From contig NC_079498.1 of the NCBI RefSeq assembly GCF_030052815.1, positions 79,842,992 through 79,906,991 on the forward strand: a DNA stretch of 64,000 nucleotides, written 5' to 3'. The notes under the pieces were generated by a model that did not search any database, was not told where the DNA came from, and saw only the letters and a program-made list of their open reading frames with translations. Within the stretch, counting starts at the first letter, position 1, and every line of letters starts with the position of its first letter. Below, in pieces: positions 245 to 63,455 of this stretch. A program made the translations under genes and the position numbers. The stretch comes from Hevea brasiliensis (Eukaryota > Streptophyta > Magnoliopsida > Malpighiales > Euphorbiaceae).

Positions 245-3200
245 TGTAACACCCCTATTTGTATAGCCTAGTATATTTCACTGTTCCGGTGACCGATGTC
301 GGTCCGGACAATTAAGGGGATTAGAACCACACTTAAGATAACTAGATGAGCTATAAATACAAATAATTAGTAATTGCCAATTAGTTAAGTACAAATAAGA
401 AAAACAGAACATAAGAAGTTAAACGAGCCGAGAGTCACAGCGATGGGTGACCTTCTCGGGAAGGATTGCGAAGTCGATTTAAACTCGAATTTTGAACCGT
501 AAAATTTGACGCTGCGGTCCTTAGGACTATTACAAACACAGTGGAAAAGAAAAAATCACGAAAAAGAATTGTTAAGTCAGTCAAATAATTTGGTCAGGGA
601 GCCGGAAGAAATATTGAATTATTTGCAAACCGGGTTGAACCGGCGAGGGTCAATTTGGTCAATTGACCCCGAGAGTTGACTCCTGACCTAACTGTCAAAT
701 AAAATCAGAGAAAAGAAAATTTCGCGATCAAAAATTAAATTAAAGAACTAATAGAAAAATTAAAAAAAAATAAGAGAAAATGAAAAAGTGAAGAGAGGTG
801 ACATCATGTATGATGCCATAAATCTTATAATTAATAAATTTGATTGAATTGATTTTTTGGTCTTCCATAAGACAAAATACATAAAAGAAAAGAAAAGAAA
901 AAAAAAATTCATTTGGTCTTCTTCCTCATCCTTGTGCCACCCTCACTCTCTCTCTCCCTCCTCCATAAGTGTCCACCATTAAAGAGTTATTCAACCTTGA
1001 ATAACTTGATGTTCTTCCACTAAAATTAACCCTAAACCCTAGAAAGCTTCTTAAGAACCCTAGACAAGAAGTATAGAAGAAAGAAGGAGGAAGAAAAATA
1101 GAAAATTGGAGTTTTGGGAATCCAAAGCAAAGGTTAGTATTCTAACTTTCAATTATCTAATCAAATGCATTTTTAGTTATTTAAATGAACTTAGAAACTA
1201 AAGAAATGAGATGAAATTAATTGTTGGAGGGCTAAACCTAAATTTCGGTCTAGGGTTTTGATGTGTGTATGCATGAGTTTGATAGATTTAAAAGTGTATG
1301 TGATCTTGTTTGAGATAAAGAAACATGAATATAGGCATAGAATCAATCAAATGCAAAGAATTGGTAAACTAGGGTTTGGACACTTAGGGTTTAGAGACAA
1401 AAATGTGAGAAATTGGTAAATGATATATTTGACCTAGTTTGAAGTGGGAATGGTCAATGGTGAGCAAATGAAGTGTGTTGGAAGTGTTGGAGTTGTGATC
1501 AAAGCAGCATGACCAAGGTCCCTTTGAGGGACCAAAACTGAAAATTTACAAGTCCAATTGGTATGAGACCAATTGAGAATGAAAATAGACACAAAATGAC
1601 ATAATTTTCATTTAGGAAGCATGCCCAAAAAGTGACCAAAACCTAGTGAACAAATTGACCAAATCCGGAAAATCTCAGTCTGCCCTGTACAAACTGACCA
1701 AATGAACAGTATTTGTTCATTTGGCCATAACATGAACTAGGCAGGTCTAAATGACCTGAAATTTTACCAGTGGATAGATGAGATATAGACCTAAAACTTT
1801 CATGAAGAATACAAACCCAAATTATGCCATTAACCAAGTCATTTGGCCACCCTAAATTGGTGACCTAAAACTGCCAGAACCAAAATTTGCCCAAAAATCT
1901 GGGTTAAGTCCAATCCGGTAGCCATGGTTCAAATGGCTATAACTTGAGCTACAAAACTCCAAATGGAGTGATTCAAAAAGGAGAATTTAGTTAAGATAAT
2001 AGGGAACATTTTCTATGAAGGAAGTTTTGCCAAATTCTAACAGAAAAATAACCAATAGAACAGTGCAACTTGAGACACCAAAACTAAAAATTTGCAAAAT
2101 TGCCTAAAAGACTTAGAATTTGAGTAAACCACCAAAACCAACAAATTTAGTGATCAAAATGTAGTATGTGGGTGAAGTTGGAATTCCCATACCTATTAAG
2201 CCTTAGAAAGTCAACAAATTGACTTGAATAGTGTAGTGAATAGTAACCCCAAAACACAAATTTTGAAGAACGCCAAGTTTAGCATATTAAAGCTAGGTAT
2301 AAGTGAATTTGAATTTATTTTTGGATTTACAATGAGTTATGATACTGAAACACTGTGAAACTGTATGTTTCAGTTGAAAAGAATATCGGAAAAGAACCCG
2401 AGGGATCGAGTCAAGGCCAAGAGGCGACTCGTATAAGGTTTGTGAACAACTAACTCTTTTGTTATTTTTCAATTCCAAATTGATTTGAAATAAATTTATT
2501 GTATGATTTATGATTTTTGTTGTGTTGAGAATTTTAACTTATTGAATGAAATTGTATAATTTGAATATAAATTTTCTTATACATTTAAGGATTTATTGCA
2601 TTGTTTTAAGAATCATAAATTTTAAGTTTGATGTGTTGCCAACCTTGAGCATGAATTTATGATGATTAAATATGTTGATGATTTGTAAACACTTTGTAAA
2701 TAGAAATTGTTTTGAATATGATTTAAAACCACAGTTGACATGACAAAATTTGTTGTGAATTCTCATTAGCTTGTCTAGTGAGATATCTCCTCCACTAGAT
2801 GGGGCGAGTTACTTTCTCTCTGGCTTGCCAGTTGGGGAAGAATTTGAATGAGTACTCATATATACTAGCTAGTCTTTGTTTCTCCCTTTTAGTCTCGGTT
2901 ATTGGGAGAATGTGAAATGTCGTGGTGTACAACACGGCATCTATTTGAATTTTGGGTCATGGGATCAACTGTGTGAATTATTGGCAACGCCATTTAAATT
3001 ATGCATAATTTGATAAATTGTGATTGAAATAAATAATTTGTTAGTGATTCAAAATATTTTTGTATTGTTTTGGAATTTAAAAGAAATGTAAATAAATAGT
3101 TATTAATTGATCAAAATGTTATTCAAATGAATAATTTGCATGAATGAAAATAATGATTTTTGTATGTCATGGATTTTGAAGAATTTAGAAATTTTAAATT

Positions 3201-4035: not shown

Positions 4036-4040
4036 ACATG

Positions 4041-4392: not shown

Positions 4393-7300
4393 TGTCACAC
4401 CCTATCCCTCTGTAAGGCATAATATGATCCCTTAGTATACCTAATGAATTACCAACTCCGTCTACTGATAACCCATTAAATACACTACAAGGGATTTTAA
4501 AAACTTTTCTTACTTCTTTTACAGTGGTGAGCACTATTTACAGGTGTTAAAAACCTTTTTGAACTGAAGTGATAGAACTAACACATTTGAATTATTTGGA
4601 ATTTCTGTAAAAATTTTGGCAGAGTGCCATCTGTATTTTGGATAAAACAGTTCTTCAAAAACCTGTAAAAAGCACTTCAATATATATTCCCAAATCTCAA
4701 CTCCAACATTTTCTCAACACAACATGTTTCTCAACTTAAATCCACAGTGATTTTTCAAAGACTAAGATACAAGAAATATAATACAATTTTTACAAGCCAA
4801 AATAACTCATAATTATTTTACAACTTCAAGGTACAATTTGAATTTACAACTGCTCAAAACCAAAAACAATATGTACATACAGTGGTCATACATTACAGTA
4901 CAAAATGCAAAATGTGGTATACTCATTATACCCGAAAATCTCTCGCTGGAGGTACTAGAGCCTAGTCTGCTACTGTCTGCTCACCATGACAAAGAATAAA
5001 GCTATCGCTGAGACAATGTCTCAGTGGTGCACAACATTAACCAAATACAACTTAAATCACAATTCATAAATCATTTAAATGATGGATATGTAAAGTCATA
5101 GTTAAATTCAAGACAATGAGTGTCAGAAGGAATTTAACACAATATCACAATAAATCCCAGAGATCAAAACATAGTTAACTTCAAAAGACAGTAAATGTGA
5201 ATAAGGATTTAACTCCATTTCACAATCTCATAATACAAATCAATAAATCACACACAGCTTAATCATGTTCCAAAGTTCAATTCGTCCCAAAAGTCGATGA
5301 CTAATGAGGAATAACATAGCTAGCTAGCAAAAATATGAGTACTCATCCAATTCGTCCTCAACAGGCACACACCTCAACACTTCAGCCAGAGAGGGAATTC
5401 AATTCGTCCCACTAGACAAGCTAATGAGGAATACAATCAATATACATGATAGCTGTGGTTTCAAATCATTTCCAATGCTTTTCAATCAATAAGTATCCAT
5501 CAATATCATTCAAACAATTTCTCACAGTTTCAAATCGTTTACAATGCTTTTCAAGCAATAAATATCCATTCAAACACATTTCCACAATTTAAAACAATAA
5601 TGTACAAATAGTCATAATTCATTTCAATTGAAAAATTCAAAAGAAATAGTTGTTGTGCACAAACCTCTGATAACTGTCTCTTGGTCTGGACTCAGTGTTT
5701 CCTTCCCTTTTCCTGAGTCTTTGGTAACTGAGAAACACAATTTGAAGTGTTTCAGTACTAAATTAAATTATCTCTAACCATAATGTTCGATAAGTAATTC
5801 ACTGAATTCAAATATTTACTTAGTCAACCTAATATGTCGACCCTCGATACATTCTAGGTAAATTAGGTTTTAACATTACTAATGTGTCACATTCGATAGT
5901 CTTTTAGGGTTGGTACATGTTACCAATTTCGTTTCCTTGTTTAGTGCATTTTATTGCAACTTGCTGGATTCCGGGATACTAGTTTGACCTAGCCGGACGA
6001 CCTAGTTCCCTCGGTTTTCGGGTTTCGGTCAAAACTAAAAAATTGTAGATCTATGTCTTATTGCACGCGGGGCAAAATTCCAGGTCATTCTGAGTTATGT
6101 AGACCAAGTTATGGTCATTTCACTATTGCTGGTCAAATGGCATCAAATTTGGTCATTTTGGTCAACTTTGGTTCGGCCAGTTTTTGGACCCGAACTTGTG
6201 CAAGCTGTTTGACTTGCTTATGGTCATTTCTGGGCTTTGGTTTCTTCATAAGAATTTTAGATATGGGTCTTAACTATTCATGGTTAAAATTTCAGGTCAA
6301 TTGGACCTGTTTTGAGTGAGTTATGGCCTAAAAACTAACTGCTGCCCAAATGGTCAGTTTTCAGGCCTCACTTGCACTTAATCCGGATTTGGTCATTTTT
6401 CAAGCTACCTTGCAAGCAGAATTTTGGTATGTTTCCTTCATGAAAGTTGGCACATTTTGTGCCTAGTTTCACCTCCAATTGGTCTCATACCAATTGGAGT
6501 TACACATTTAGTGTTATAGGCTAAAATGCATACTGCCCTTAAATACATTGCTTAACATCTATCAATTGCACATTTACTTGCTATAAATCCACTTCTCTTA
6601 CCAATTCTGATTTGGTACATTACCAAAACCATTTATCACTTCATATTAGAGTCACTTTGGGCAGAATACAATTATCCTCAATATACCAAATGAAACTCTA
6701 ATTCACAAAGTCCAAATAAAACAACATATACACATGACCACTCCTAATTATTACATACAATTTCCACAACCAATTTACATACATATTCATCAATCCTCAA
6801 TGTCCAATTCACCCAATATCTTCATGAATTTAAACATTCATCAAGGAGTCTCAAGGCTGCCGAAATGCTCCCCATTGCCAAAGTTTCCCATAGTTTCTTC
6901 CACTTCAATTCCAAATGCACAATCACCACATATACATGGAAATAACTTACTAGGACATTAAATCACCCTACTCAACATGAATTCACATCAAATATATGTA
7001 TGAATATTTCATTAAATATACTACTCCATGGCTGTCCAAACTGGATATATCAATAACTCCTCAAAACTTTAAAATTTTCTTCACAAATCAAACACCCATA
7101 CATGCTTACAAACTTTAACAAAGCAATATTCAAAAATACAAACTTACCTATTGTTAGGACTTGTGAAATCTTCACTAAACTTCCTTGATTTTGCTATCAA
7201 ACTCTTCCTTGTGATGTGGAGGTAATCTTTAATGAAACAACCTAGGTGTTTGGAGGTGAATTGAAGGAGGTTGATGAAGCTTTATGCAAAACGGCAATGG

Positions 7301-11941: not shown

Positions 11942-14715
11942 TGTAACACCCCTATGTTCGGTAGTGCGTTCTACTGTTCCAGTGACCAGTGTTGTCAGGA
12001 TAGCTAGAATGCCTAGAACTAAACTTAAATATGGATGAGGAGACATAAAATAATGAAATACAAGAAAAGAAAATACAAGAAAAACAAAGGAAAAATAATA
12101 GCAATGAAATGTAACCAAGTTAAACGAGCCGAGAACCCTAGCAATGGGTGACCGCACCGCAAAGTTGCTGCATGGACCGTTGACTAGCCCTGGACCGCGA
12201 AGAACCTTGGAAAATATTTTTAAGACTTAAATAGACATCTATTGAAGTATAAATATCATTAGAAATATCAAAGAAAAATTAATTAATTAGTACAAAGAAA
12301 AATAAGAAATCGAGAAAACGACAAAACTCGGTGTTACCGAAAAATAGGGAATACAACCCGAACAGGGGCATTGTGATCATTTGACACCCCGAGTTGTCTT
12401 TGACCTAAATGTCCATTAAAAATAAATGATATTACACTTGGAAAATGCCACGAAAAATTAAAATAGTGGTACAAAATCTAAATAGCAAAAGATAGGAGGA
12501 AAATGTGCAAATTATGGAAGTTTAACATAAAAAATGTTTTTAATCCTATTAGTGCTCCACTAACTCCACTAAAGTGGACCATTAAACATATTGTGGATAG
12601 CAGATCACTCATCTTCTTCAACCTCACTCACCTTGCCGAATTGAAAAAAAAAACTCTCAAAACCTCCATGGATGGCCAACCATGGCCAAAGCTTCCTAAC
12701 CTCCATGCAAGCATGAAGTAAGCCCCTTTTCCACTTGATTTCTTCACTAAAGTTGTTCTACACAACTTGGGCAGTAGATAGGCAGCAAAAAATTTAAGTT
12801 TTGGTGAGGTTTTGAAGAATTTCAAAAGTGGTAAGTATGTATTTTTTATTCTTGTTTCATTAAACCTTGAATGGATGTTATGGGTAGTTGATTTGTGGAA
12901 GAATTTTTGAAGTTTGATGTTTTAAGGGAGATGTACATTTTGGCAACCATGTAACCTCAATAAGAATAGTTTATTCTTGCATGTAAATAGTGGTTTGAAT
13001 GATGATTTAAATGGTTGATTGTATTGTACTTGAATTCCATGTGTAAGGTATGATTTGGAAGCTTAAAAAGTGAAAATGGCAATTGATGGGTATGTGTAAA
13101 TTTGTGGCAGCCTCATGAAGAAGATTGAAATGTTTGAGTTCATGAAATTTTGTTGAATTATTTTGTCATTGATGGCAGCATGTGTATATGAATAATTGGT
13201 TGAATTTGGATATGTGTATAGTGATTTGAATTTGGTCATGTAAATGAGGTGCATTCATGTGTTTAATTGTTGTAATTGGACTTGGAAAATTCTGGGTTAT
13301 AGTGTGCATATTGAGAATGGTTATAAGCTGCCAAAATGACAAAAAATGAGTTGCTAAATGTGTTAATGTTATGGTACAAACCAGAATTGGCATGGAAGAG
13401 TGACTTGTAAGCATAGGATGTGTAATTGGTAAAGGGGTGAACAATGTACAATAGGGCAGTGTATGTTTTGGCTTAGAACCTTAAGTGTGTGGCTCTAATT
13501 GGTATGATACCAATTGGAGGTGAAAGTAGGCACAAAATGTGCCAACTTTCATGAAGGAAGCTTACCAAAATTCTGCCCAGAAGATGACTTGAAAAATGAC
13601 CAAATCCGGATTAGTGCTTTGAAAGCCTGAAAATTGACCATTTGGGCAGTAGTTAGTATTTTGACCATAACTCACTCAAAACAAGTCCAATTGACCTGAA
13701 ATTTTTACCATGAATAGTTGAGACATATATCTACAACTCTTATGAAGACACTAACACCCAGAAATGACCATAAGCAAGTAAAATAGCTTGCACAAGTTTA
13801 GGTCCAAAAACTAGCCGAACCAAAAGCGACCTAAAAATGACCTAAAGCTACCATTTTGGTACATTCTGTCCAGCATTGGTAGATTGACCATAACTTGGTC
13901 TACACAACTCAGAATGACCTGAAATTTTGCCCTGCTTGCAATAAGACATAGACCTACAAGTTTGTAGTTTGGACCGAAACCCGAAAACCGAGGGAACTAG
14001 GTCAAATTAGTATACCGAAATTCGATAAATTGCAATAAAATGCAATATACTTGAAAATGAATTTGGTAACATGTACCAACACTAAAAGGCTATTAAATGT
14101 GACATATTGGTAACATTAGAATTGACTTACTTAGAGTGCATCAAGAGTCAATATTATAGGTTGACTAATGAAATGAATTGAAGGGAATAGTACCAAGAAA
14201 ATTTAAATATTGGATTTTATTGTTAGAAACAAATTCATTGAGTACTGAAACACTTTAAATTGAGTGTTTCAGTTAAAAAAGATATTGAGAAGCATAAAGA
14301 ATACTAAGTCAGGGCCAAGAGGCATATATCAGAGGTTTGTGCATAATAGTTATTTCTTTTGAATTTTTCAATTGAAATAAATTATGATTATTTGTATGTT
14401 ATTGTTTTAAATTGTGTTTGTGCACCATAATTTCGATTTCTTATTTCTACTTAAAAATTTATTTGAACATTATAGTTTTAAATTGTGTCTGTGCAAAATA
14501 CTTTTTATATTCACTGCTTTTACTAGAAAATTTATTTGGAGAAATGAGTTATGAATAATTTTTTATTGTTTTGGCTTTAAGAATCTTATTTGGAAATAAT
14601 TGTGTTGCCTACTTTGTAAATGGAAATTTTGAGATAAAATGTGATTTGGGAATTGTATGAAATATTATGATTTAGAATTGTTTTGATTCACACTTGGCAT
14701 GACACTGTTATTATA

Positions 14716-15148: not shown

Positions 15149-15927
15149 TTTGTGTTATATGAACTTTGTAAATTGTGAAATGGAATTGTGAATTATTTAA
15201 TTTGTGAATTGTCAATAAAAGAATTATATATCGCATTTCAAATTGTTATTGTGCACCACTGAGTAAATTTTACTCAGCGATAGCTTTTCATTGCTGTCGC
15301 AGGTAGACAGACTGACAGGGCAGCAGACTAGGCTGCTAATGCTATATTGAGAGTTCATCGGGTATATTGAGTATACCATATTTTACATTTTGTATTGTAA
15401 TGTATGTTCACTGTATGTATAAAATGTTCTTGGTTTTGAGCAGTTGTAAATTAAAATTGTACATTAAAGTTGTAAACTAAATTTGTAAATTATTTTGGTT
15501 TGTAAATATTGTGATATATTTCTTTTATCTCAGCTTTTGAAAACACCGAAAAATTATTATGGATTGGATAGACAAATGTTGAGAAACTTATTGTGTTGAT
15601 TTGGATGTTGGAGTTTGAGATTGAGAAATATATTTGAAGTGCTTTTTACAGGTTTTTGAAGAACTGTTTTATTCAAAATACAGATGACACTCTGCCAAAA
15701 TTTTTTTCAGAAATTATTAATTCTTCAAATGTGTTAGCTATTTCACTTCAGTAAAAGAAACTTTTTAACACCTGTAATAGTGCTCACCAGTGTAAAAAGA
15801 AGTAAGAAAAGGTTTAAAATCCCTTGTAGTGTATTTAATGGGTTATCAGTAGGCGAAGTTTGATTATTCATTAGGTATACTACAGGATCATGTTATGCCT
15901 TACAGAGGGGTAGGGTGTGACAAACCA

Positions 15928-16139
15928 GACTTGACATATACAGAAGAACCTATACAAATCCTAGCTCGGGAAGTGAAGGAATTGAGAAATAAACAAATTC
16001 CACTAGTGAAAGTGCTTTGGAGGCACCACAATACTGAAGAGGCAACTTGGGAAAGTGAAGAGACGATGAGGCAACAATTCCCTCAACTGTTTGCATCAGG
16101 TAAATTTCGAGGACGAAATTTTTATTATAGGGGAGGAGT
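15928..16139 (+). pseudogene. H1 chromodomain, pol C-terminus and polypurine tract
   Basis: Continues integrase in register after LTR 3. The chromodomain-type motif reads LAREVKELRNK, then IPLVKVLWRHH, then EEATWE and MRQQFPQLF, which is the diagnostic C-terminal module of plant chromoviruses. The conserved FRGRNFYY end (GGACGAAATTT) follows. The purine tract ATAGGGGAGGAGT (16127-16139) directly abuts the LTR and would prime plus-strand synthesis. Chromodomains direct integration to marked chromatin in this group. Confidence 0.88.
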
Positions 16140-19100
16140 TGTAACATCCTCACTTTAGCTAGTCTGTACAGTCTACTGTTCTGGTGACCAATATCAGTTC
16201 GGGCAGCTAGAATGTTTGAAATTATAATTAGACTAAAGTGGAGAGTTATAAAGAAACCAAATAATGCTCATAAAAATCAAGGAAAAATTTATAGGAAAGA
16301 AATACACTAAGGTTAAACGAGCCGAAACCCCAGGGATGAGTAACCCGAAAGGGAAGTGACGATGAAGGTCGTTAGCAACCCGAGACCTGGGAAAAACTTC
16401 ATGAAATAATTTTTGGGACCTCAGGGAAGGATTATTGAGGTTCCAATGACAATAAAATATTAAGAAAACACAAGAAAAATTTAATCAATCGGTACACACA
16501 ATTTTGGCTCGTTAAGCCAAACGGAGGGCATTTTAATCATTTCATCTTTAGAAATGATTTTTGACCAACTTGTCCATTTATGTAAGTGAATTATATGACA
16601 TAAAATATGAACAAATATTGATAAAAAAATTATTTAAAAATGAATAGGCAATGAAAGAAAAGAAAATGAAAATTATGGGATTTATTACTTCATGCTTATG
16701 TAAGCATGAGGTAATTAAAAATGCTATGGCCAATCAAATTAAAGCAAGAAAATTATAATACATTAAAAATAGAAAAAAGAGGGCAGAAAATCTGGATCAA
16801 ACCAGCAGCCTCTCCCTTCTTCAAAACATCACTTATGCTCTCCTCCCTCACTCCTCCATTAACAAGCTCCCAAACCTTCATTTTCCCTAGCTTTCTTTCA
16901 ACAAAAACCCTAAGTGTCAACATAAAACCTTGATATTTCAGCTTGGTGAAGCTTTTGGGAGCAAAAGGAAGAGTAAAAGAAGAGTTCTTACTAGCTTGAG
17001 ATTAGCTCTATTAAAGGTTAGTGACTTAAACTTGTTTTTCTCTTTAAATTCATGTTAAAGGAGTATGATTGAGTGCAAAATTACAAAGAAATTTAATAAA
17101 TAACATGTGTATGCCCATCCCACATTTTTGGCAGCCTTGGATGTGGTAATGTTTTGAGGATTTCATGAACTAAAAATTGTAGTATGGCTGCCTTAACATT
17201 GGTCTCTTAAGTGAAATGGTGAAATGCAAGTTAAATGCATGATTTGAGATGTTAGGGTTAGGGTTTGGGTATGAAATGGAGCCTTTGATCATGTAATGGT
17301 GAAAGTAAGTTTTAATGGTCAATTAGTGACCATTTGGTTATGTGTAAACAAGAGTGGGAATTAAGGTTAGTGTGGCTGCCCTTGGTGACCTGCAGGACTG
17401 GGCATGAGTCCAGTAGGTTTGGGCAGCAATAACTAGAGTTGTAGAGGTTCAATTGGGGCAAGGAAAATTGGACATGAAACTAGACACATAATGGCACAAC
17501 TGTGGTGAAGAAACTATGCCCAGAAAACCAAACCAAGTTGACCTAAAGATTACCCTAATCTGCGTGACCTGCATTCTGCCTGGGCAAAATGACCAAATGA
17601 ACAGTGTTTAGTCATTTGGCCATACCTCAGTGTAGAGAGGTCCAATTGACCTAAAATTTTACCAAAAACAAGCTGAGATATAGACCTACAACTTTTATGA
17701 AGAAATATAACCAAAATTATGACCATAACATATTCAAAAAGTGACCTGCAGTCACTGCTCAAAATACTGTAGATTTGGTCAGTCCAGAAAATCTGGAAAA
17801 TTTGTAATCCGGCCAGTTGTTGTTTTTGGGCCATAACTTGAGTTACAAAACTCCAAATGGAGTGATTCAAAAAAGGAAATGTAACTAGACAAAATAAGAA
17901 ACAACTTTCATGTTGACCATTTTTCCAAATTCCCACTGCAAGAATGACTAATGGAACAGTAAACACAAAGTTTGAAATCTGAAAATTTTGAACAATTAAC
18001 ATTAAGCTTAGAAATGGTATTGGCAACCAATACCAACAATTTTAGAATGCAAAATGTGGTATGTTGGGAGTATTAAAACCAATGTACCTATTGTCCATGT
18101 AAAAGTCAACATTTTGTTGACTAATGAATTGAATAGTAACACCAAAACTTGAATTTCAAGAATTGTGAAACTTAATAGTGTAATATGCCCTAGTACACCT
18201 AGCAAGATTGGTTTGGATAGGTTGGCATGCCAATAGGGTTCTGTTAGCAGTACTGCATATAGCTTCATGCCATTCTGTGTTTTATGGCCTCACTTGCCAT
18301 TCTGTGACATAATAGCCTTTGGCTATGTTGATTGAGTTGTTATACTTGGGTTTTATCCCTTATAATTATTACAGCTTAGTAGCTGTTCTGTTGCATACCA
18401 GAAGACACAATGTGACTGATGGTGTGATGGTCCGAGGTATTTAGTACCCAGTGCTAGTTTACCCGTTTATCCAGTCCAGTCAACTAGTATGGGTTACTCG
18501 GGCAATGATAATAAATCTTACCAAATTTTAATCAAATAATACTACAATAAATATCAAAAATTAAGTCTACCAAAAATATAAACATACATTCTGCATATTT
18601 ATTTTATTTTAGTTATTTTATTTTATATTGTCACCACTAAGCAGAATTGCTTAGCGCATCACTTTTGCCATGCGCAGGTACTGGAGACATAGCTGGGGAG
18701 TCCAGCAGACCTCATACAGGGTGAGCTTTCAGATCTGCACACGAAGTCCAGAGTCACCTCACATTTCCAGTGCATTTGGTAGGACATTAGGCCACTTTTG
18801 GTGTTTTGGTATTTCGTATTTTGTAAACTTCTGTAATGTATATTATAAACTCATGTAATTATGTTTTTGATGTAATTATCTATGAACTATGTTCAGTAAT
18901 AAATGTGAGCATTTCTCATTGAATTGAGTGTGATATGAAATGAATTGAATTTTGAGATACTGAAGTCATTTGAGAAATTATTGAGAATATATTGGTGGTT
19001 AACTGAGAATGATGTGATGATTTTATTGGAAGTGTTTTTAACAGATTCAAAAGAACTATTTTTCCAATTTACAGCCAGCACTCTACCGGATTTTCTATAA

Positions 19101-19241: not shown

Positions 19242-20743
19242 TAATAGTGTAGTGAATAGTAACTCCAAAATACAAATTTTAAAGAATGTCAAGTTTAGCA
19301 TATTAAAGCTAGGTAAAAGTAAATTTGAAATTATTTTTGGATTTATGATAAGTTATGATATTGAAATACTGTGAAACTGTGTGTTTCAGTGGAAAAGAAT
19401 ACCGGGAAAGAACCCGAGGGATCGAGTCAAGGCCAAGAGGCGACTCGTATAAGGTTTGTGCACAACATGGAATTTCTGTAAATTTTTTTCTGCACATTGT
19501 TTTGAATGAATTGAAATATTACATTGTGACACCATTGTCTTGAAATGTTTATTATACTTTGATTTAAATTGTTGAAAGGTTACTTGTTTGTGTTTGAAGT
19601 GGCAATAAATATTTAGTAAATTGTTAAGATAGTTTTGAAACCACAGTGTCATGACTATATATTTGAATACCTCACTAGCATGACTAGTGGGGGAAATCAG
19701 TTTCGAATTTTGATTCCTTTTTTGGTTGAAGTGTTAAGGTGTGTGCCAGTAGAAGAAGAAAAAGAATGGGTTCCCATATATTTGAGCTAGCTAGCCTTGT
19801 GATGTGACTTCCCATAAGCCCCTGGCCATTGAGATTAATATGTTTTGAATGGCATGATATAACTGTGTATTTTTATGAAATTTGTTTTGAAACTTTCGAA
19901 ATGAAATTGTTTGGATTAAAATTTTATAAGTCATATTTTGAATTTATATCTCATGTTCAGTTTAATTTTTGAATAAATATGATTTAAATTCTACATAAAT
20001 ATTATTTTGGCATGTTGTGCACCACTGAGTCATAGTACTCAGCGATGGCTGTTATTGCTATCGCAGATATAGATACTAGAGGAGCAGTAGAGTGAGCTGC
20101 TAAGGATTGTGGAGCCACCTTCCCTGAAGTTTATCAGGTATATTTTATACCCTGATTGTAAAAATTATTTTGATGTATGTAATGTATGTAAATGTAGGAA
20201 GTGGTCATGAGCAGTTGTATAAAGCTTGTAATAAATTTTAGTTTGGATTTTTCTTAATGTAAATTTTTGTAATGATGTATATAAATTGTTTTATCTTTAA
20301 TTACATATGAATGGAAGTATTTTGTTTTAATTTGAATGAAATTAATTAGTAGTATTTTGATGATGTTGAAGTTTGGAATTTGAGAAATAATGTTGAAATT
20401 GGTTGGGATGGATGTTGAATTGATGAAGTTGTTGAGATAAATCATTGGAAATGCTTTTTACAGGTATTTGAAGAACAGTTTTCTCAAAATACAGACGGCA
20501 CTCTGCCGAAATTTTTATAAAATTTGCAGAAAAATAAAATGGGATAAAAATCTTAACTAGTTTTTAAACTCTAATTAAATATTTTAATACCTATTAGAAA
20601 ATGCTCACCACTTATAAAAAGTAAGAAAATAATTTTAAAATCCCTTGTAGGGTACTTAATGAGTTATCGATAGGTGAAGTTCGGTAGTTCATTAGGTATT
20701 CTATGGGATCATGTTATACGTTACAGAGGGGTAAGGTGTGACA
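19242..20743 (+). mobile_element. H2 5' LTR, 3' part only
   Basis: Starts in mid-LTR with sequence matching 2228 onward of solo LTR 1 and ends GGTGTGACA at 20743. The left part must lie upstream of H1, outside the window. It contains the double hairpin (20025-20064, stem variants GCGATGGC/GCTATCGC), the GGTATA/TATACC hairpin near 20137 and TGAGCAGTTGTA (20208-20219). The 3' terminal segment matches those of the LTRs at 43096 and 59391. Confidence 0.87.
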
Positions 20744-20751
20744 TGTTTTAG

Positions 20752-22170: not shown

Positions 22171-22189
22171 CGATGAGACAGTGAGAAGA

Positions 22190-43095: not shown

Positions 43096-46000
43096 TATCA
43101 CACCTTACCCCTCTGTAAGGCATAACATGACCCTGTAGAATACCTAATGAACTACCGAACTTCACCTACCGATAACTCATTAAATACCCTACAAGGGATT
43201 TGAAAACCATTTTCTTACGTCTTGGAAGTGGTGAGCATTTTAGTAGGAATTAAAACATTTAATTGAAGTTTCAAAACTAGTAAAAATTTTTGTCCATTTT
43301 TATTTATCCACAAATTTTAGAAAAATTTTGGCAAAGTGTCGTCTGTATTTTAGGAAAACAGTTCTTCAAAAACCTGTAAAAACACTTCCAATACTTGTTT
43401 CCACAACTCCCAACTACTAAATTTACCCAACTCAACATAACTCGAATCAATTCCACAACTCAATCAAAGTTTGTCATCTCAAAATAGTTCATAATTTCAT
43501 TCACATTGCATTTAAAATTTAATTTACATATACATATACAGATCTTAATTTACAAAAGAAAATCCAAATAACAATATTACAATTTACTGTACAACTGCTC
43601 AACTTTACATTAATACATATGACATTACAATATTTACATCAAATAACTACAAGGGTATAAATAAATACCCGTGCAAAAAGATTAGTGAAGTCCCAACAAT
43701 CAGTAGCTCACTCTACTGCTTTTTCCTTGTCTCTATCTGCGACAGCAAAGAAAGCTATCGCTGAGTATAAAAATACTCAATGGTGTACAATAAAATACAA
43801 AATGCATAATATAAAACATTTATGAATAATTCATAATTCAAAAATCTCACAATCACATTTCATAATTTTTCAAATCACATTTATAGCAAATCATAATTTT
43901 CAAAGCTTGATATAACACAAATTTGATCAAACAATTTAATAATCATAGTGTTCCCAATCAATAACACAACTTAGGCCATGACACAAAATTTCCAAACATG
44001 CCGTGTTGTACACCATGACAAGGCAAACTCACCCCACTAATCGAAATCAATGAGCGAGGTGGCTAGCTAGCTAATGAGTACTCATCCAAACTCACCTCCT
44101 GACTGGAAAGCCAAAGAGGGAGGAATATAGTCAAACTCACCCCATAAATGGAGGAGGAACATAGTGATATTGCCATGCCAAGTATGAATAAAAAAAAACA
44201 ATTTAAATCAAGTTATTCAAACATTTCATACAATTCACAAATCATATTTCATTCCAAACTTTTCATTTTCAAAGTAGGCAACACACTATTTTTCAAATAA
44301 CATTTTCAAAGCCATAATAATCAAAATTATTCACAACATTTATTTCAAGAATTATCAAGTAGAAACAAAAAAAATTTTAAGTTTGTTGTGCACAAACCTG
44401 ATGTAAGTCGCCTCTAGGCCTTGACTCAGTTTGCCCTATCCTTTTCCAAGTCTTTTTCAGCTGAAACACGAAATTTATAGTGTTTCAGTATCTTATCTCA
44501 GAATAATTCCAATAATTAATTTATATATGTTCAATTCTAGCTCCAATATACTTAAACTTACATTCTTGAACATTTTCATGTTGAGGTTACTATTTATGGT
44601 ACTATTCAAGTCAAAATATTGACTTTCTTATGCTTAATAGGTATGGGAAATCCAATTATACCCACACACCACATTTTGGTTACCTAACTTGTTGGTTTTG
44701 GTCATTTTCTCAAAACTTAAGTTTTTTAGGCAAACTTTCAAATTTTCAGTTTTGGTAGCCTATTTTGCACTGTTCCATTGGTCATGTTGCTGTTAGAATT
44801 TGGCCAAGTTTTCTTCATAGAAATTGTTTCTTATTGTCTTAAATTTATTTTCCTTTTCGAATCACTCCATTTGGAGTTTTGTAGCTCAAGTTATAGCCAT
44901 TTGAACATGGCTGGCCGGATTGGCCTAACCCAGATTTTCTGGGCACCAAATCTGATTCTAGCAGTTTTAGGTCACTAACTTTGGGTGGCTAAATGACTTG
45001 GTTAAGGGCATAATTTGGGTTTGTATTCTTCATGAAAGTTGTAGGTCTATATCTCAGCTTTCTACTGGTAAAATTTCAGGTCATTTAGACCTGCCTAGCC
45101 TAAGTTATGGCCAAATGAACAAACACTGTTCATTTAATTATTTTTGTACAGGTCAGAACACCCATTTCTGGATTTGGCGAATTTATTCACTATGCTATGG
45201 TCACTTTCTAGGCATGATTCCTAAATGAAAAATGTGTCATTTTGTGTCTAGTTTCATCCCCAATTAGCCTCATACCAATTGGGTTGGTAAATTTTCAGTT
45301 TTGGTCCCTGAAAGGGACCTTGGTCATGCTGCCTGCAGAATGGCCATAACCAATCCAAATTTCAATTTGGTTCCAACACTTCCAACACACCATAATTGGT
45401 CATACATGACCATTTTTCAACTCAAGCAAGGTCAAACACATCATTTGGCTAATTCTCACATTTTTCCTCCTAAAACCCTAGGTCCAAAACCCTAACTCAC
45501 TTCATTTGTTACATTTAATTAGTTCCAAGCATACAAACACCATTTCTCAACTCATTCAAACTTTCTAACATATTTAATTCAATCAAACTCATGCATTCTC
45601 AACTTAAACCCTAGCTAGCCGAATTCACACCTAGTCCTCCAAAGTTGTTTTCATTTCATTTTAAGTATTTTTCTAGGTTTATTTAACTATAAACACAATT
45701 AATTCAACTAGTAATTCAAGTTTAGCTTACTAACCTTGATATAGCTTTTCAATCTTCACTTCCTTCAACTTTTTCTTCTTTCTTTCTCCTTTAATCTTCT
45801 TTTCTAGTTGCCCAAACAAGGTTTAATCATGGTAAATGAATTTTTTATGGTGGGATTTTGGTTTCTTCAAGCTCACAAATGAGCTTTCATGGAGATTTTA
45901 AAAGGGAGAGAAGAGAGAGAGAGGTCACGGCAAGAATGGAAGACAACTCCTTTTTTTTTTCTTTTCTTTTATAAATTTTAACTAAATTAATACATAATTA

Positions 46001-48894: not shown

Positions 48895-51808
48895 TGTCAC
48901 ACCTTATCCCTTGTAAGGCACGACATGTTCCCGTAGCATACCTAATGAATTATCGAACTCCACCTACCGATAATCCATTAGTTATGCTACAAAGGATTTT
49001 AAAATAAACCATAGCTTTTTATCTTATCAATTCTTTTGCGGAAAACTGCATGAGAATAGTTAAAGTTCCATGTAAACATTCATTGAAAATAATGATAGAC
49101 TAAATATTGCAAAAGTTACATTTTCATAGGTCTCAAAGTAAAATACAAAATAGTTACAAACTCAAAATGTGATAGCAATGCAATGCTTTTAAATACAAAC
49201 TGCTCAATGTCTGTACATCCATACATATAGGTACAAAATACATCCAAAGGAAATTACAGGGGTATACCTACGATATATACCCACAATTAATACCAAATGC
49301 TGCTTCCAAGTCTCTCACTCGGTAGCCTTCTACTTTCCCTTACCTGCGATAGCATAAAGAAGCTATCGCTGAGTATATCACTCAGTCGTGCACAACTAAT
49401 AACTTTAAAACTTAAGGTAAAACACAATTTGTCAACGCATAATAAATCACATTTTTCTTAAGCATGAAAACTTCACAATAGTTCTAAGTCCATAAAGGCC
49501 ATTTATTGGAATAACATTTCAAATGAGAAATCACACTTCATAAATCACAATTCACAAAGCATTAGTGTTGCCAACATCAATACACAGTTTAGGCCATGAC
49601 ACAAAATTTTACGATCAGTGCCGTGTTGTACACCACGACAAAGCAATCTCAACCTCACAACCGTTATTAATGAGGGAAGGGCTAGCTAGCTAATGAGTAC
49701 TCATGTAGTCTTACCCCACTAACCGTTATTAATGGGAGACATAATCAATATCAATTATCAACCCTAAGTAGCCATTACTACTGGGGAGTTCCGAAAGGGA
49801 CTGTCATGCTAACTGTGGTTTCAAAACAGTTTCCAAAAATTTCCCACTCAATAATCACATTTATAAACTAATAAACACATTTAAATTCATCATAATATCC
49901 AAATAAAGGTGGTAACACCCAAATTTCTCAAATGCAAGAGAAAAACTATATTCCAGTCAAAGTAAACTTGTTCAAAGCAAACTCATTCAAATAAACACAT
50001 TCCAAACAATTTACAAGTTTAAAAACGAAGAAAAGGTTAGTTGTGCACAAACCTTCAATAATTCTCCTTCCTTATTACCTACTATTCCTTGTCCGTCCCA
50101 ACCTCTTTCTCTACTGAAAATACACAAATAGAATGTCTCAATACGCATCTCAATTGCTGCCAAGAACTCATTGCATGAATGTCTAATGCATCCCAAATTA
50201 GCTTTGCAAATTTTTGAAAATTTTGGTTTTGGACAACTTAGTGCCCCAATCTTTGAATCCAATTTTTACCTAGTTTCGATCATAATTTGGTGAGGTGTTC
50301 TTCATGAAAATTGTTCATCTAGGTCTTAACTTTATTTTCCTTTTTGAATCGCCTAATTTGGAGCTGTGTAGCTTAAGTTATGCCCAAAACACGATTATTG
50401 TCCACGTCACTGCTGCAGATTTAGTTCTGGCAGATTTATCGATCCAACTTCGTTCAGCAATTTGATCAAGTTAAGTCCATAATTTGGTCTAATGTTCTTC
50501 ATACAAAATGTTCTACTATGTCTTAGGTTTCCATCGGTTCAAGAATCGCCTAAATTGGAGTTTTCTAGAGATAGTTATGGCCATGCAAATTTTACTATTT
50601 ATATGATAAATCTGCAATTCTATAGATTCAGTGATTCAACTTTGCTCAGCAATTTGATTGGGTTAAGTCCATAATTTGGCCTCAAATTCTTCATATGAAA
50701 TGTTCTGCTATGTCTTAGGTTTCCATCGGTTCAAGAATCGCCTAAATCAGAGTTTTCTAAAGAGAGTTATGGCTATGCAAAATTTACTGTTCATATGGTC
50801 AAATTCTGCAGGTTCCAGATTTCTGTCTCCAAGTCCAAGGCTCATTTTGGATAGCTTAAGGTCATTTTCGGGGCAGGGTATCTTCATGAAAATTCTAGCC
50901 CTATGTCTTAAGTTTCATTTCCAATTGGTTTCACACCAATTGGAGTTGTGTAGCACAATTTATGGGCTGTTAAACACACTGAACTTAGTGTGCAAATTCT
51001 GCCCTAAGTTTAAAATTTTCATTTCTTCAATTATTCCCTCTAACCAACCTCAATTCATATTTAATTTACCCAAAATGACTGTAATTTAGCATTGACACAT
51101 CAATGGCACTTCCTAGCACAAAACCCATAATTTTCAAGTACCAAAGTTTTCAATTTTCCCTAATCCTACTATTTCATTACCTCCATTCATCAACCCAATG
51201 TCAATTCAAACTAAATAAACCTCAAATGACCATAATTTAACACTACACACACCAATTTCACTCTTTAGCACCAAAACTCCAATTTTCCCATGAACCCTAA
51301 TCTTCCATAATTCAATTTATGCAATCCCATGAAATCTTACTACTTCCAATCATGCATACTACTTCACTTTAACTTAGATTTATTATCAATTTAACTAAAA
51401 ATACATCAAACCCTAATTTTTCTCCTATTTGGCCAAAACCCTAGTTTAGGTTCCATACATGTTTTCTTTCATTTTCTTATGAAATTTCATCATAAATTAA
51501 CTTCATTCCAAGCTTATACAACTAATCTAACATGAAAAGAAACTTACCTCTTGTTGATTTCTTTCCAACTTCACTTTTCTTCCAATTCTTGTTCTCCTTG
51601 CTTTTAATCTCTCAATTAAAGATCTCTTTGATGTTTTCTTTTAGTGGGCTATGGAATTTATAAAGGGAATTTAAGGGAATTAAAACTTGGGAGGGGAAAT
51701 CAATGAGGGGAAGAAATGGAAGAAGAAGAGAAAAAGAGAGAGAGAGGAAGAGAGAGGAGAGGGTGGTGGCATCTTATGAAAAAAAGAAATGAATAAGACA
51801 TTTGTCTT

Positions 51809-55745: not shown

Positions 55746-55914
55746 ACTCCCTGAACAACCAACACAAGGAGATTTCCCTCTATTAGTCCATATTTATGAT
55801 GCAATGCACCATATGTATCAATAACGACAATTGAGCAGTTGTACTTATCAAAATTTTTGAAACATGCAATTTCAAAACTTGTATAAAAACCAAAGCTCTG
55901 ATACCACTAAAACA
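55746..55914 (-). promoter_or_regulatory. H4 leader: PBS, LTR-complementary motif, acceptor, deletion junction
   Basis: PBS complement GCTCTGATACCA at 55895-55906, eight bases from the LTR. GTACAACTGCTCAA (sense, 55831-55844) faces GAGCAGTTTGTAT in the LTR. An acceptor TTGTGTTGGTTGTTCAG gives exon start at 55750. Almost immediately after it the sequence jumps into protease: all of gag is deleted. Confidence 0.83.
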
Positions 55915-58751
55915 TATCACACCTTATTCCTTGTAAGGCACGACATGTCCCCATAGCATACCTAATGAATTACCGAACTTCACCTACCGATAACCCATTA
56001 GTTATGCTACAAAGGATTTTAAAATAAACCATAGCTTTTTATCTTATCAATTCTTTTGCGAAAAACTGCATGAGAATAGTTAAAATTCTATGTAAACATT
56101 CATTGGAAATAATGATAGACTAAATATTGCAAAAGTTACATTTTCATAAGTCTCAAAGTAAAATACAAAATAGTTACAAACTCAAAATGTGATAGCAATG
56201 CAATGCTTTTAAATACAAACTGCTTAATGTCCGTACATCCATACATATAGGTACAAAATACATCCAAAGGAAATTACAAGGGTATACCTACGATATATAC
56301 CCACAATCAATACCAAATGATGCTTCCAAGTCTCTCACTCGGTAGCCTTCTCCTTTCCCTTACCTGCAACAGCATAAAGAAGCTATCGCTGAGTATATCA
56401 CTCAGTCGTGCACAACTAATAACTTTAAAACTTAAGGTAAAACACAATTTGTCAAAGCATAATAAATCACATTTTTCTTAAGCATGAAAACTTCACAATA
56501 GTTCTAAGTCCATAAAGGCCATTTATTGGAATAACATTTCAAATGAGAAATCACACTTTATAAATCAAATTCACAAAGAATTAGTATTGCCAACATCAAC
56601 ACACAGTTTAGGCCATGACACAAAATTTTACGATCAGTGCCGTGTTGTACACCACGACAAAGCAATCTCAACCTCACTAACCGTTATTAATGAGGGAAGA
56701 GCTAGCTAGCTAATGAGTTCTCATGTAGTCTTACCCCACTAACCGTTATTAATGGGAGACATAATCAATATCAATTATCAACCCCAAGTAGCCGTTACTA
56801 CTGGGGAGTTCTGAAAGGGACTGTCATGCTAACTGTGGTTTCAAAACAGTTTCCAAAAATTTCCCACGCAACAATCACATTTATAAACTAATAAACACAT
56901 TTAAATTCATCATAATATCCAAATAAAGGTGGCAACACCCAAATTTCTCAAATGCAAGAGAAAAACTATATTCCAGTCAAAGTAAACTTGTTCAAAGCAA
57001 ACTCATTCAAATAAACACATTCCAAACAATTTACAAGTTTAAAAACGAAGAAAAGGTTAGTTGTGCACAAACCTTCAATAATTCTCCTTCCTTATTACCT
57101 ACTATTCCTTGTCCGTCCCAACCTCTTTCTCTACTGAAAATACACAAATAAAATGTCTCAATATGCATCTCAATTGCTGCCAAGAACTCATTACATGAAT
57201 GTCTAATGCATCCCAAATTAGCTTTGCAAATTTTTGAAAATTTTGGTTTTGGACAACTTGGTGCCCCAATCTTTGAATCCAATTTTTACCTAGTTTCAAT
57301 CATAATTTGGTGAGGTGTTCTTCATGAAAATTGTTCATCTAGGTCTTAACTTTATTTTCCTTTTTGAATCGCCTAATTCGGAGCTGTGTAGCTCAAGTTA
57401 TGCCCAAAACACGATTATTTTTCACGTCACTGTTCATGATGCAAATTTAGTTCTGGCAAATGTATCGATCCAACTTCGTTCAGCAATTTGATCAAGTTAA
57501 GTCCATAATTTGGTCTAATGTTCTTCATACAAAATGTTCTACTATGTCTTAGGTTTCCATCGGTTCAAAAATTGCCTAAATTGGAGTTCTCTAGAGAGAG
57601 TTATGGCCATGCAAAATTTACTGTTCATATGGTAAATCTACAATTCTGCAGATTCAGTTATTCAAATTTGCTCAGCAATTTGATTGGGTTAAGTCCATAA
57701 TTTGGCCTCAACTTCTTCATATGAAATATTCTACTATATCTTAGGTTTCCATCGGTTCAAGAATCACCTAAATCGAAGTTTTTTAGAGAGAGTTATGGAC
57801 ATGCAAAGTTTACTGTTCATATGATCAAAGTCTGCAGGTTCCAGATTTCTGTCTCCAAGTTCAAGGCTCATTTCGGATAGCTTAAGGTCATTTTCAAGGT
57901 AGCGTATCTTCACAAAAATTCTAGCCCTATGTCTTAAGTTTCGTTTCCAATTGGTTTCACACCAATTGGAGTTATGTAGCTCAATTTATGGGCTATCAAA
58001 CACACTAAACTCAGTGTGCAAATTCTGCCCTAGGTTTAAAATTTTCATTCTTCATTCCCTCTAACCAACCTCAATTCACATTTAATTTACCCAAAATGAC
58101 TGTAATTTAGCATTGACACATCAATGGCACTTCCTAGCACAAAACCCATAATTTTCAAATACCAAAGTTTTCAATTTTCCCTAATCCTACCATTTCATTA
58201 CCTCTATTCATCAAACCAATGTCAATTCAAACTAAATAAACCTCAAATGACCATAATTTAACACTACACACATCAATTTCACTCTTTAGCACCAAAACTC
58301 CAATTTTCTCTTGAACTCTAATCTTCTATAATTCAATTTACGCAATCCCATGAAATCTTACTACTTCCAATCATGCATACTACTTCACTTTAACTTAGAT
58401 TTATCATCAATTTAACTAAAAATACATCAAAACCATAATTTTTCTCCTATTTTGGCCAAAACCCTAGTTTAGGTTCCATACATGTTTTCTTTCATTTTCT
58501 TATGAAATTTCATCATAAATTAACTTCACTCCAAGCTTATACAACTAATCTAACATGAAAAGAAACTTACCTCTTGTTGATTTCTTTCCAACTTCACTTT
58601 TCTTCCAATTCTTGTTATCCTTGCTTTTAATCTCTCAATCAAAGATCTCTTTGATGTTTTCTTTTAGTGGGCTATGGAATTTATGAAGGGAATTTAAGGG
58701 AATTAAAATTTGGGAGGGGAAATCAATGAGGGGAAGAAGTGGAAGAAGAAG
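55915..58751 (-). mobile_element. H4 5' LTR, 3' part in sense (left of composite B)
   Basis: Starts TATCACACC (TG mutated to TA) at 55915 and matches 48895-51731 closely. Donor AGAG|GTAAGT has GT ending at 58570. Interrupted by composite B at 58751; it resumes at 63456 after removal of one AGAAG. Confidence 0.92.
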
Positions 58752-59389: not shown

Positions 59390-59550
59390 TTGTAACACCC
59401 CTATTTGCATAGCCTGGTATATTTCACTGTTCCGGTGACCGGAGTCAGTCCGGACAATTAAGAGGATTAGAACCACACTTAAGACAACTAGATAAACTAT
59501 AAACACAAATAATTAGTAATGTTCAATTAGTTGAGTATAAATAAGAAAAA

Positions 59551-60350: not shown

Positions 60351-60472
<122 letters not shown>

Positions 60473-63455
60473 AGGGACTAAATTGAAATTCGTCCAGCCT
60501 TTGTAAGGGTAAGAATTGCATGAATTTGATTGAATAAAATATGTTAGAAAGCTTGAATGAGTTGAGGAATTGTGTTTGTATGGTTGGAATTAGTAAAATG
60601 TAACAAATTAAGTGAGTTAGGGTTTTGGAATTTAGGGTTTATGAACCAAAAATTTGGAGAAATGAGTAAATGATGTGTTTGACCTATTGTGAAGTGAAAA
60701 ATGGTCAATAATGACCAAAGGAGATGTGTGGGAATTGTTAGAATGGAAGTCAAATTCGTAGGGTATATGGTCATGCTGCTGGCAGCATGACCAAGTCAAC
60801 TTTGAAGGACTAAAACTGAAATTTTACAAGTCCAATTGATATGCCACCAATTGGGGATGAAAATAGACATAAAATGACACAATTTTCATTAAGGAACCAT
60901 GCCCAAAAACTGACCAAAACCTAGTGAACCAATTGACCAAAGTTGGTTAAGAGCATCACATCAAGATAAACTGACCAAATGAACAGTATTTGTTCATTTG
61001 GTCATAACTCGAGCTAGACAGGTCAAAATGACCTGAAATTTTACCAGTAATTAGACAAGATATAGATCTAAAACTTTCATGAAGGATACTAACCCAAATT
61101 ATGCCATTAACCTAATCAAATTATTGAGTAAAGTTGAGTTACTGAACTTGCAAAACTGCAGATTTCCATTTGAACAGTAAAGTTCCAATGGCTATAACTC
61201 TCTCTAGAAAACTCCGATTTAGGCGATTCTTGAACCGATGGAAACCTAAGACATAGTAGAACATTTCGTATGAAGGAAATTAGACCAAATTATGGACTTA
61301 GCTTGATCAAATTATTGAACGAAGTTGGATCAAAAATCTGCCAGAATCAAAATTGCAGCATGAACAGTGCACGTGAACAGTAATTGTATTTTGGCTATAA
61401 CTTGAGCTACAAAACTCCAATTGGGGTGATTCAAAAATGAGAATACACCTAAGACAATAAGGAACATTTTCTATGAAGGAAGGTTTGTCAAATTCCAACA
61501 GTAAAAGGACCAATGAAACAGTGCAACTTAGGACTCCAAAACCGAAAATTGGCAATTTTGCCTAAAAGACCTAAGCTTTGAGAAAATGACCAAAACCAAC
61601 AAATTTAATAACCAAAATGTGGTATGTGGGTGAAGTTGGAATTTCCATACCTATTAAGCCTTAGAAAGTCAATAATTTGACTTGAATAGTACAGTGAATA
61701 GTAACCCGAAACACAAAATTTTAAGAACGTCGAATTTAGCACGTTAGAGCTAGGTAAAAGTGAAGTTAAATTTATTTTTGGATTTATGCTAAGTTATGGT
61801 ACTGAAACACTGTGAAATTGTGTGTTTCAGTGGAAAGGAATATCGGGACAGAACCCGAGGAGTCGAGTCAAGGCCAACAGGCGACTCGTTTGAGGTTTGT
61901 GCACAACTAACTCTTTTGTTATTTTTCAATTCCAAATTGATTTGAAATAAATTTATTGTATGATTTATGATTTTGTTGTGTTGAGAATTTTAACTTATTG
62001 AATGAAATTGTATAATTTGAATATAAATTTTCTTATGCATTTAAGGATTTATTGCATTGTTTTGAGGATTGTAAATTTTAAGTTTGATGTGTTGCCAACC
62101 TTGAGCATGAATTTATGATGATTAAATATATTAATGATTTGTAAACACTTTGTAAATAGAAATTACTTTGAATATGATTTGAAACCACAGTTGACATGAC
62201 AAAATATGTTGTGAATTCTCATTAGCTTGTCTAGTGAGATAACTCCTCCACTTGATGGGGCGAGTTTCTTCCTCTCTGGCTTGCCAGTTGGGGAATGATG
62301 TGAATGAGTACTCATATATACTAGCTAGTATTTATTTCCCCCTTTTAGCCTCGGTTATTGGGAGAATGTGAAATGTCGTGGTGTACAGCACGGCATCTAT
62401 GTGAATTTTTGGTCATGGGTTCGACTGTGTGTATTGTTGGCAACGCCCTTTAAATTATGCATGATTTGATAAATTATGATTGAAATAAATAATTTGTCAA
62501 TGATTCAAAAAATTTTCTTTGTCTCGGAATTTAAAAGAAATGTAAATAAATAGTTACTATTTGATCAAAATGTTAATAATTTGCATGAATGAAAATGTTG
62601 ATTTCTGAAGGTCATGGATTTTGAAGAATTTAGAAATTTTAAAATTCTATTTGTTATGAATTTTAAAGCATAAATTGTATTAAGTTTTAAATTATTAGTT
62701 TGTGCACCACTGAGTTCACCACTCAGCGATAGCTTTGTATGCTGTCGCAGATATAGAGACTAGAGGAGCAGCAGATTGAGCTGCTGAGGACATGGGAGCT
62801 ACCTGCTAGAAGTTATCGGGTATAATTTATACCCTGACTGTAAATATTTCTTTTGATGTATATATTGCGCATAAATGTATGGACATGTAAAAATGGGTCT
62901 TGAGCAGTTTGTATAAAATTTGTATAAAGTTGTAATATATATTGTAGTTTGAAATTCTCTTAATGTAAATTTTGTAATGATGTGTTTTGTTTCTAATGAA
63001 ATATGAATGGAACTATTTTATTTAATTTGAATGAAATGTATTGCTAGTATTTTGAGGATTATTGAATTTTGAATTTGAGAAATTGATTGAAATCATTGTG
63101 GAATTGTTGAAATGGATTGAGTTTGATTGTGAAATTGAAGTAGTTGTTGAGAAAAATTTTTAGAAGTGCTTTTTGCAGGTATTTGAAGAACTGGTTTCCC
63201 AAAATACAGACAGAACTCTATCAAAATTTTTATAAAATTTGCGAAAAACTAAAATGGACCAAAAATATTAACTAGTTTTAATTTTAACTAAATGTTTTAA
63301 ATACCTATTAGAAAATACTCACCACTTGTCAAAAGTAAGAAAATTGTTTAAAATCCCTTGTGGGGTACTTAATGAGTTATTGATAGGTGAAGTTCGGTAG
63401 TTCATTAGGTATTCTACGGGATCATGTTATGCCTTACAGAGGGGTAAGGTATGAC

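Follow-up and report, generated by a model that had tools for sequence, protein, structure and literature searches.

Giant LTRs of Ty3/gypsy elements in Hevea brasiliensis: a conserved donor motif and a probable intron contained within the LTR

The splice donor of foamy viruses (Spumaretrovirinae) supplies the pol and env mRNAs, with gag expressed from unspliced RNA; among plant retrotransposons, the Ogre elements have giant long terminal repeats (LTRs). Both are relevant to a 64,000 nt stretch of Hevea brasiliensis DNA (contig NC_079498.1, positions 79,842,992–79,906,991), termed here the window. In the window, Ty3/gypsy copies, likely of the Tekay/Del clade, are nested in one another, and their LTRs are numbered L1–L11; a donor motif, termed D1, is found within ten of these LTRs.

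The closest described systems share some of these properties (papers identified by PMC number are cited from excerpts unless a word count is given). The foamy virus donor is also in the LTR, after the transcription start and probably ahead of the poly(A) site, and is required for gag expression (PMC3694450). The Hevea elements differ in that the last acceptor is just before gag, with a putative LTR exon in between. Ogre elements (Tat) of pea and Medicago are, like those of Hevea, plant Ty3/gypsy elements, and have an intron that is partly spliced (PMC6317226). In the barley element BARE1 and the Arabidopsis element EVADE, splicing contributes to keeping RNA pools apart or yields a gag-only mRNA, but these are Ty1/copia elements with the intron at the gag end or across the protease (PMC3735527, PMC12786077). 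The Tyran, Varan and GAG-RNAs of sunflower and triticale are LTR transcripts with one or two introns, known from nanopore RNA reads; the introns give truncated or gag-only isoforms, and the excerpts mention no LTR exon. The triticale Gags are mostly Ty1/copia, and the sole Ty3/gypsy GAG-RNA has no intron (PMC7730604, PMC7765848). CRR of rice is a plant gypsy element with spliced transcripts, but the splice takes out rt, not the leader (as told in PMC3735527). Retrosat2 and other Tekay/Del elements belong by name to the same clade as the Hevea copies, and have LTRs of >3.2 kb with an R (repeat) region predicted at 2 kb; no intron is mentioned, and the word 'intron' is absent from PMC3485330. 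Neither 'intron' nor 'splic' occurs in PMC3059260. A 2025 review, as excerpted, treats plant LTR elements as generally without introns, with Ogre and EVADE as exceptions (PMC12786077). Searches of the open-licence literature yielded no leader intron in a Tekay/Del element and none with an exon inside the LTR. A donor in the LTR and introns in plant LTR elements are already known, the introns at other places as far as the excerpts tell.

D1 is most likely a working donor that is joined to a TTTCAG acceptor in its own LTR, because a solo LTR in the Hevea genome lacks exactly 1434 nt from the GT of D1 to TTTCAG. The probability of this reading is put at roughly two in three (0.68); a second intron, from the LTR to an acceptor close to gag, is predicted only.

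The junction between the two LTR exons (exon 1|exon 2) was proposed before the genome was searched for it. In its L9-type form the junction has one match, with 2 mismatches, in the 1.88 Gb genome; the reversed control gave 0, and the chance expectation is <1e-5 by a uniform-base estimate. The unspliced L9-type context is found in 975 places. The matching locus, L105, is a solo LTR that has both LTR ends and the target-site duplication (TSD) ATTCA, and is 2077 nt in length vs 3523 for L9. Its one large gap corresponds to positions 870–2303 of the L9 LTR and has the form GTAAGT...TTTCAG, with a 2-nt AG ambiguity in placement. Identity with L9 is 96.1% and 91.2% on either side of this gap, and the other gaps of at least 5 nt measure 5–21 nt. 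Only about 7e-7 of the possible deletions of at least 500 nt have these ends. The missing segment, termed intron 1, has GT..AG ends with conserved borders, as for a spliceosomal GT-AG intron.

The LTRs start with TGTAACACCCC and end with GTGTGACA, or near-identical sequences. GGTWAGT is found 866–890 bp from the LTR start in nine LTRs, and also in the split L10:

1131..1138, plus strand: D1 of L1 (245–4035), LTR position 888; last exon base 1132
7142..7149, minus strand: D1 of L2 (8023–4393), LTR position 876
12829..12836, plus strand: D1 of L3 (11942–15922), TG|GTAAGT, LTR position 889
17015..17022, plus strand: D1 of L4 (16140–20743), LTR position 877
29801..29808, minus strand: D1 of the truncated L6 (30672–29281), LTR position 866
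36189..36196, minus strand: D1 of L7 (37065–33113), LTR position 871
45729..45736, minus strand: D1 of L8 (46613–43096), LTR position 879
51542..51549, minus strand: D1 of L9 (52416–48894), LTR position 869; subfamily of the L105 solo LTR
58565..58572, minus strand: D1 of L10, an LTR split by the solo LTR L11
60279..60286, plus strand: D1 of L11 (59391–63456), LTR position 890

A preliminary description of the window had listed ten such donors, and all ten are present on the strands it gave. Its depths of 888, 876, 889, 877, 871, 879, 869 and 890 hold; the copy placed at 29816, at a depth of 856, is really at 29801–29808 and 866. The donor it assigned to a broken LTR (58570) is indeed that of L10. 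L5 (26494–24176, minus strand) has no donor motif, and self-comparison shows that this part of it is missing. L5 was considered as a spliced copy and ruled out, as by the same comparison its gap is not at splice sites.

Between subfamilies, D1 is conserved well above its surroundings. AGGTWAGT is found 12 times in the window, compared with a mean of 4.4 and a maximum of 9 in 100 shuffles; nine of the 12 are D1 sites, and the L3 site is outside that set. In an alignment of nine LTRs, 6 of the 7 motif columns are invariant vs 42 of 520 flanking ungapped columns (~8%); elsewhere within 500 columns, windows of seven columns have at most 4. When sequences were simulated along the LTR tree (length 5.1 substitutions per site) so as to reproduce flank conservation, 0 of 285,714 windows were as conserved as the motif; with stronger rate variation, which over-predicts flank conservation, the fraction was 1e-4 to 4e-3. 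An alignment of 13 LTRs, eight from the window and five from the genome, shows 6/7 vs 10/242, where the five genome LTRs were chosen for carrying the motif and L093, fetched with three of them, lacks it. The eight-row alignment omits L10 (a near-duplicate of L9) and L6 (of L7), and L5 is out of all LTR alignments. The full-length alignment of eight LTRs has other conserved blocks in the 3′ half that are equal in length or longer; D1 thus stands out locally, amid rapidly changing sequence, without being the best-conserved block overall.

Among 33 LTR starts, 26 have the motif within 1000 nt, and the seven without it (two of which are one locus) are mutated, truncated, deleted or unrelated. Ten 701-nt stretches positioned by the length of L4 missed the donor, except for one GGTTAGT at the edge of one of them. 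D1 is the top 5′ splice site of its LTR in five of nine and second or third in the other four by a plant splice-site matrix; the nine scored are those that hold D1 from their LTR start. T content is 13–30% in the 60 nt before D1, which are purine-rich, and 36–48% after it in all ten copies, the kind of change seen where an exon meets an intron. Eight of nine LTRs have a CT-rich patch 199–211 nt upstream of D1, which likely marks the transcription start:

925..964, plus strand: CT-rich patch of L1, ~205 nt before D1; predicted start of exon 1

Scoring of acceptors brought out a segment of 59–64 nt in the eight full LTRs of the window, between ..TCAG| and AG|GTTTGTG. All nine columns of its donor border, AGGTTTGTG, are invariant in 8/8 full LTRs, and so are five of the last nine columns of its acceptor border, TCAG included; in the body only 2 of 54 columns are invariant. 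T content is 10–18%, vs 38–52% in the flanks, and lies in the lowest 0.3–5.8% of windows in the respective LTR. With its conserved borders and T-poor body the segment has the appearance of an exon, even if those borders also sit in inverted repeats. The candidate segments, termed exon 2, are as follows:

2374..2437, plus strand: candidate exon 2 of L1, TTTCAG|...AAG|GTTTGTG, 64 nt
5665..5727, minus strand: candidate exon 2 of L2, 63 nt, with the border TTTCTCAG|; the search pattern chose a later AG, which gives 48 nt
14273..14334, plus strand: candidate exon 2 of L3, 62 nt
19390..19453, plus strand: candidate exon 2 of L4, 64 nt
34868..34926, minus strand: candidate exon 2 of L7, 59 nt
44398..44460, minus strand: candidate exon 2 of L8, 63 nt
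50053..50113, minus strand: exon 2 of L9, 61 nt; the acceptor at LTR 2303|2304 is that of the L105 junction
57073..57133, minus strand: candidate exon 2 of L10, 61 nt
61831..61894, plus strand: candidate exon 2 of L11, 64 nt

The acceptors TTTGTTTAG and TTGTGTTGGTTGTNCAG are found in the leaders of the window where the preliminary description had located them, and the spacing of 23–25 nt to the gag ATG holds. The three window leaders have AAATCTCCTTGTGTTnnTTGTnnAG in common. The sites concerned are:

20872..20877, plus strand: branch-point-like ACTAAC in the leader after L4, with 32 nt from its A to the end of the AG
20884..20908, plus strand: gag-proximal acceptor in the leader after L4, AG at 20907–20908
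20932..20934, plus strand: gag ATG (MEEGD...) of the leader after L4, beginning at the 24th base past the acceptor; a gag copy with stops
32954..32978, minus strand: gag-proximal acceptor in the leader after L7
55751..55775, minus strand: gag-proximal acceptor in the leader after L10, in an element without gag
55895..55906, minus strand: primer-binding site (PBS) TGGTATCAGAGC, after the LTR end and inside the predicted intron 2

The PBS is taken to be of the initiator-Met tRNA type. In a set of 13 leaders (three from the window and ten from the genome), a pattern with ACTRAY, the A of which precedes the end of the AG in YAG|G by 32 nt, recognizes 12; the thirteenth (L098) carries this block too, altered at a single point, and falls outside the pattern. 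The gag ATG is at the 24th or 26th base after the acceptor in 11 leaders, and a twelfth has no gag. A two-codon upstream open reading frame (uORF), ATGRACTRA, overlaps the branch-point motif in 12 of the 13 leaders (20868–20876, plus strand, and the equivalent place in the other two window leaders), and could also account for conservation of the motif.

Elements of the L10 type allow a wider view of this acceptor. Of 30 L10-type leader loci, 29 fit a looser acceptor pattern, two of them with CAA instead of CAG. Seven of 40 scored L10-type copies match to query base 225 only and are presumed gag-bearing because the match ends as in gag-bearing copies; the two that were read (L024, L032) both have a gag start. 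The donor context is in the fetched 5′ stretch of five of these seven elements, and in one it is mutated to GGTAATT. A second type comprises four elements in which the leader runs into a gag start; GGTTAGT is found in three, at LTR depths of 890, 894 and 901 bp (894 being counted from a start that reads TGTAATA), and is absent from the fourth stretch. D1 and the gag-proximal acceptor, both conserved, look like real splice sites.

These sites suggest a scheme for expression. Transcription is predicted to start near LTR position 680, giving an exon 1 of ~200 nt, an exon 2 of 59–64 nt and an exon 3 that starts just before gag. Intron 1 would run from D1 to the acceptor inside the same LTR. Its removal leaves the PBS and therefore spliced RNA could be copied. 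We infer that the RNA that gave rise to the L105 solo LTR was spliced and then reverse transcribed, and first-strand transfer of a spliced R-U5 (repeat-unique 5′) region would place the intron-less form in both LTRs. Intron 2 is predicted to extend from AG|GTTTGTG to the acceptor 23–25 nt before the gag ATG, and would take out the LTR 3′ end, the PBS and the leader; the product would be a gag-pol mRNA with a leader of ~290 nt that is not copyable. Unspliced RNA would serve as the genome and the template for copying. A further role of D1 may be to protect the 5′ LTR from polyadenylation, as happens in foamy viruses (PMC3694450).

The preliminary description had envisaged splicing of D1 to the gag acceptor with removal of ~3 kb, yielding a short-leader gag-pol mRNA next to an unspliced genome. 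Both sites are conserved and splice-site-like, and the spans between them are 3892, 3241 and 2820 nt in the three leaders. The single intron itself is not supported: the direct junction has no match in the genome, and the L105 solo LTR joins D1 to the acceptor within the LTR. The two kinds of RNA survive as a prediction that now depends on intron 2, with the PBS inside it.

With odds that seem only a little better than even, the giant LTR can be looked at as a leader gene of the form exon-intron-exon-intron, where the first splice leaves a copyable RNA and sheds intron-less LTRs, the second removes the PBS and makes the gag-pol mRNA, the choice of splice site sorts RNA into mRNA and genome, and intron content would explain LTR length. 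This bears on why some plant elements have LTRs of 3–5 kb, and on how gypsy elements of plants in which gag and pol share one frame keep RNA for translation apart from RNA for packaging. If true, the pattern could be tested for in any expressed Tekay family, and the LTRs would be ready-made promoters with a first exon and donor for nearby genes.

Several observations weigh against the two-intron scheme. There is a single fossil, from one subfamily, among four junction patterns searched. The L1-type exon 1|exon 2 junction has 0 matches in the genome, a figure that comes without a count of the unspliced L1-type context. The junction of exon 1 to the gag acceptor has 0 genome matches with two patterns from two subfamilies, and a BLAST probe for it was negative for the 40 candidates scored out of 2157. 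As a donor, AG|GTTTGTG is weak. The borders of exon 2 form inverted repeats (CTGAAACAC..GTGTTTCAG, TTGTGCACAA), so that another role is possible for them. L5 has the exon 2 donor border and no matching acceptor by pattern; in the 30 L10-type leader loci, AGGTTTGTG is within reach in 21, of which 18 have an acceptor. Exon 1 retains 0–2 ATGs. By a splice-site matrix, the gag acceptor ranks 4th of 227, 2nd of 179 and 2nd of 172 among the AGs. Lastly, the preliminary description had proposed a comparison of donor and flanks across the family LTRs, which is favourable between subfamilies and shows no excess within young ones: within one subfamily (30 and 8 copies) D1 is conserved no better than its flanks. 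The mean majority fraction of these flanks is already 0.986 and 0.979, and the copies are too young to inform.

The absence of direct junctions enters the argument in two ways. If D1 were spliced directly to the gag-proximal acceptor as one long intron, there would be no LTR exon and the L105 solo LTR would represent a side product. The two sites do occur in the same elements, and introns of 5–10 kb can be spliced in Arabidopsis (PMC5575664, in excerpt). The direct junction is nonetheless missing in two subfamilies, although RNA lacking the PBS should leave no copies in any case; for the same reason the two-intron scheme expects zero direct junctions, which is no proof of that scheme. One long intron is judged unlikely, as it would leave both the L105 solo LTR and the conserved U-poor stretch bordered by splice sites in need of another explanation. 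Slightly less probable is a foamy-like function, in which D1 is mainly a site for the U1 small nuclear ribonucleoprotein that keeps the poly(A) site of the 5′ LTR inactive, any splicing being of minor extent or restricted to the LTR. The R region of the clade member Retrosat2, predicted at 2 kb (PMC3485330), implies that D1 may lie in R. This function is compatible with splicing, but it leaves the conserved pre-gag acceptor, the branch point spacing and the exact loss of the intron unexplained.

About equally improbable is that an ordinary DNA deletion through 2-nt AG microhomology produced the L105 gap, and that conservation of the motifs reflects DNA or RNA structure, such as a promoter, packaging or the uORF. 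AG is repeated at both ends of the gap, ATGRACTRA overlaps the branch point in nearly all leaders, and exon 2 has its borders within inverted repeats, all of which would suit this explanation. What argues against it is the rarity of such ends among the possible deletions, their GT..AG form, and that the junction had been proposed ahead of the search. Splicing from D1 to the acceptor of the same LTR remains the preferred reading.

A possible further acceptor is GCTRTCGCAG|GT, at 2.9–3.9 kb of the LTR. It scores best in two of three introns, but was set aside as an arm of a conserved hairpin. This hairpin, CAGCGATAGC..GCTRTCGCAG, is at ~2.8–3.9 kb of the LTR (e.g. 3279–3305 in L1), and its pairs are kept via G-U changes. 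It is followed by a T-poor stretch and then UGUA-rich sequence, and R may have its 3′ end here.

The elements are Ty3/gypsy chromoviruses, because Pfam shows gag, protease, reverse transcriptase (RT), RNase H and integrase together with a chromodomain. The order gag, protease, RT-RNaseH, integrase, chromodomain is spread across several broken copies of the window. The clade is likely Tekay/Del, given a chromodomain after the integrase, the domain order and the PBS. The best 120 of 7986 protein matches have 60–79% identity, and those named are mostly plant. The chromodomain concerned is:

15925..16155, plus strand: chromodomain at the end of pol of the element surrounding L3 (Pfam Chromo, 2.6e-06)

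L3 is a solo LTR with the TSD AACCG/AACCA, inserted in the chromodomain part of a pol, and L1 is another, with the TSD ACATG, inserted in a gag. The family is high-copy, with 3755–3977 first-look candidates per query in the genome, not all confirmed. In other species, viral contigs gave no match, and genome contigs yielded two plant fragments present as contaminants, of which one has a leader but no clear gag-type acceptor. The contigs are in the bacterial assemblies NZ_SWBM01000019.1 and NZ_VCHY01000050.1 (L001, L002), encode a plant-type chromovirus-like RT and are probable plant contamination.

At 16140–24161, L4 is the 3′ end of one plus-strand element and is directly followed by the PBS, leader and gag of another. 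This is likely a recombinant tandem, because related leaders elsewhere follow another LTR type. At 55913–52417 (minus strand) and in loci L011–L040, the L10-type leader leads straight into protease/RT with no gag, and this form is probably a non-autonomous derivative. Degenerate frames are found at 26929–28307 (minus strand), which we take to resemble the integrase of another gypsy lineage, and at 39572–40417 (minus strand), presumably similar to a CACTA transposase; a Pfam scan of 26926–27546 matched no family. Beside L11 there is a stretch of ~640 bp with an internal 280-bp tandem repeat (58752–59391), and its inverted counterpart, 95% identical, is at 47287–47912.

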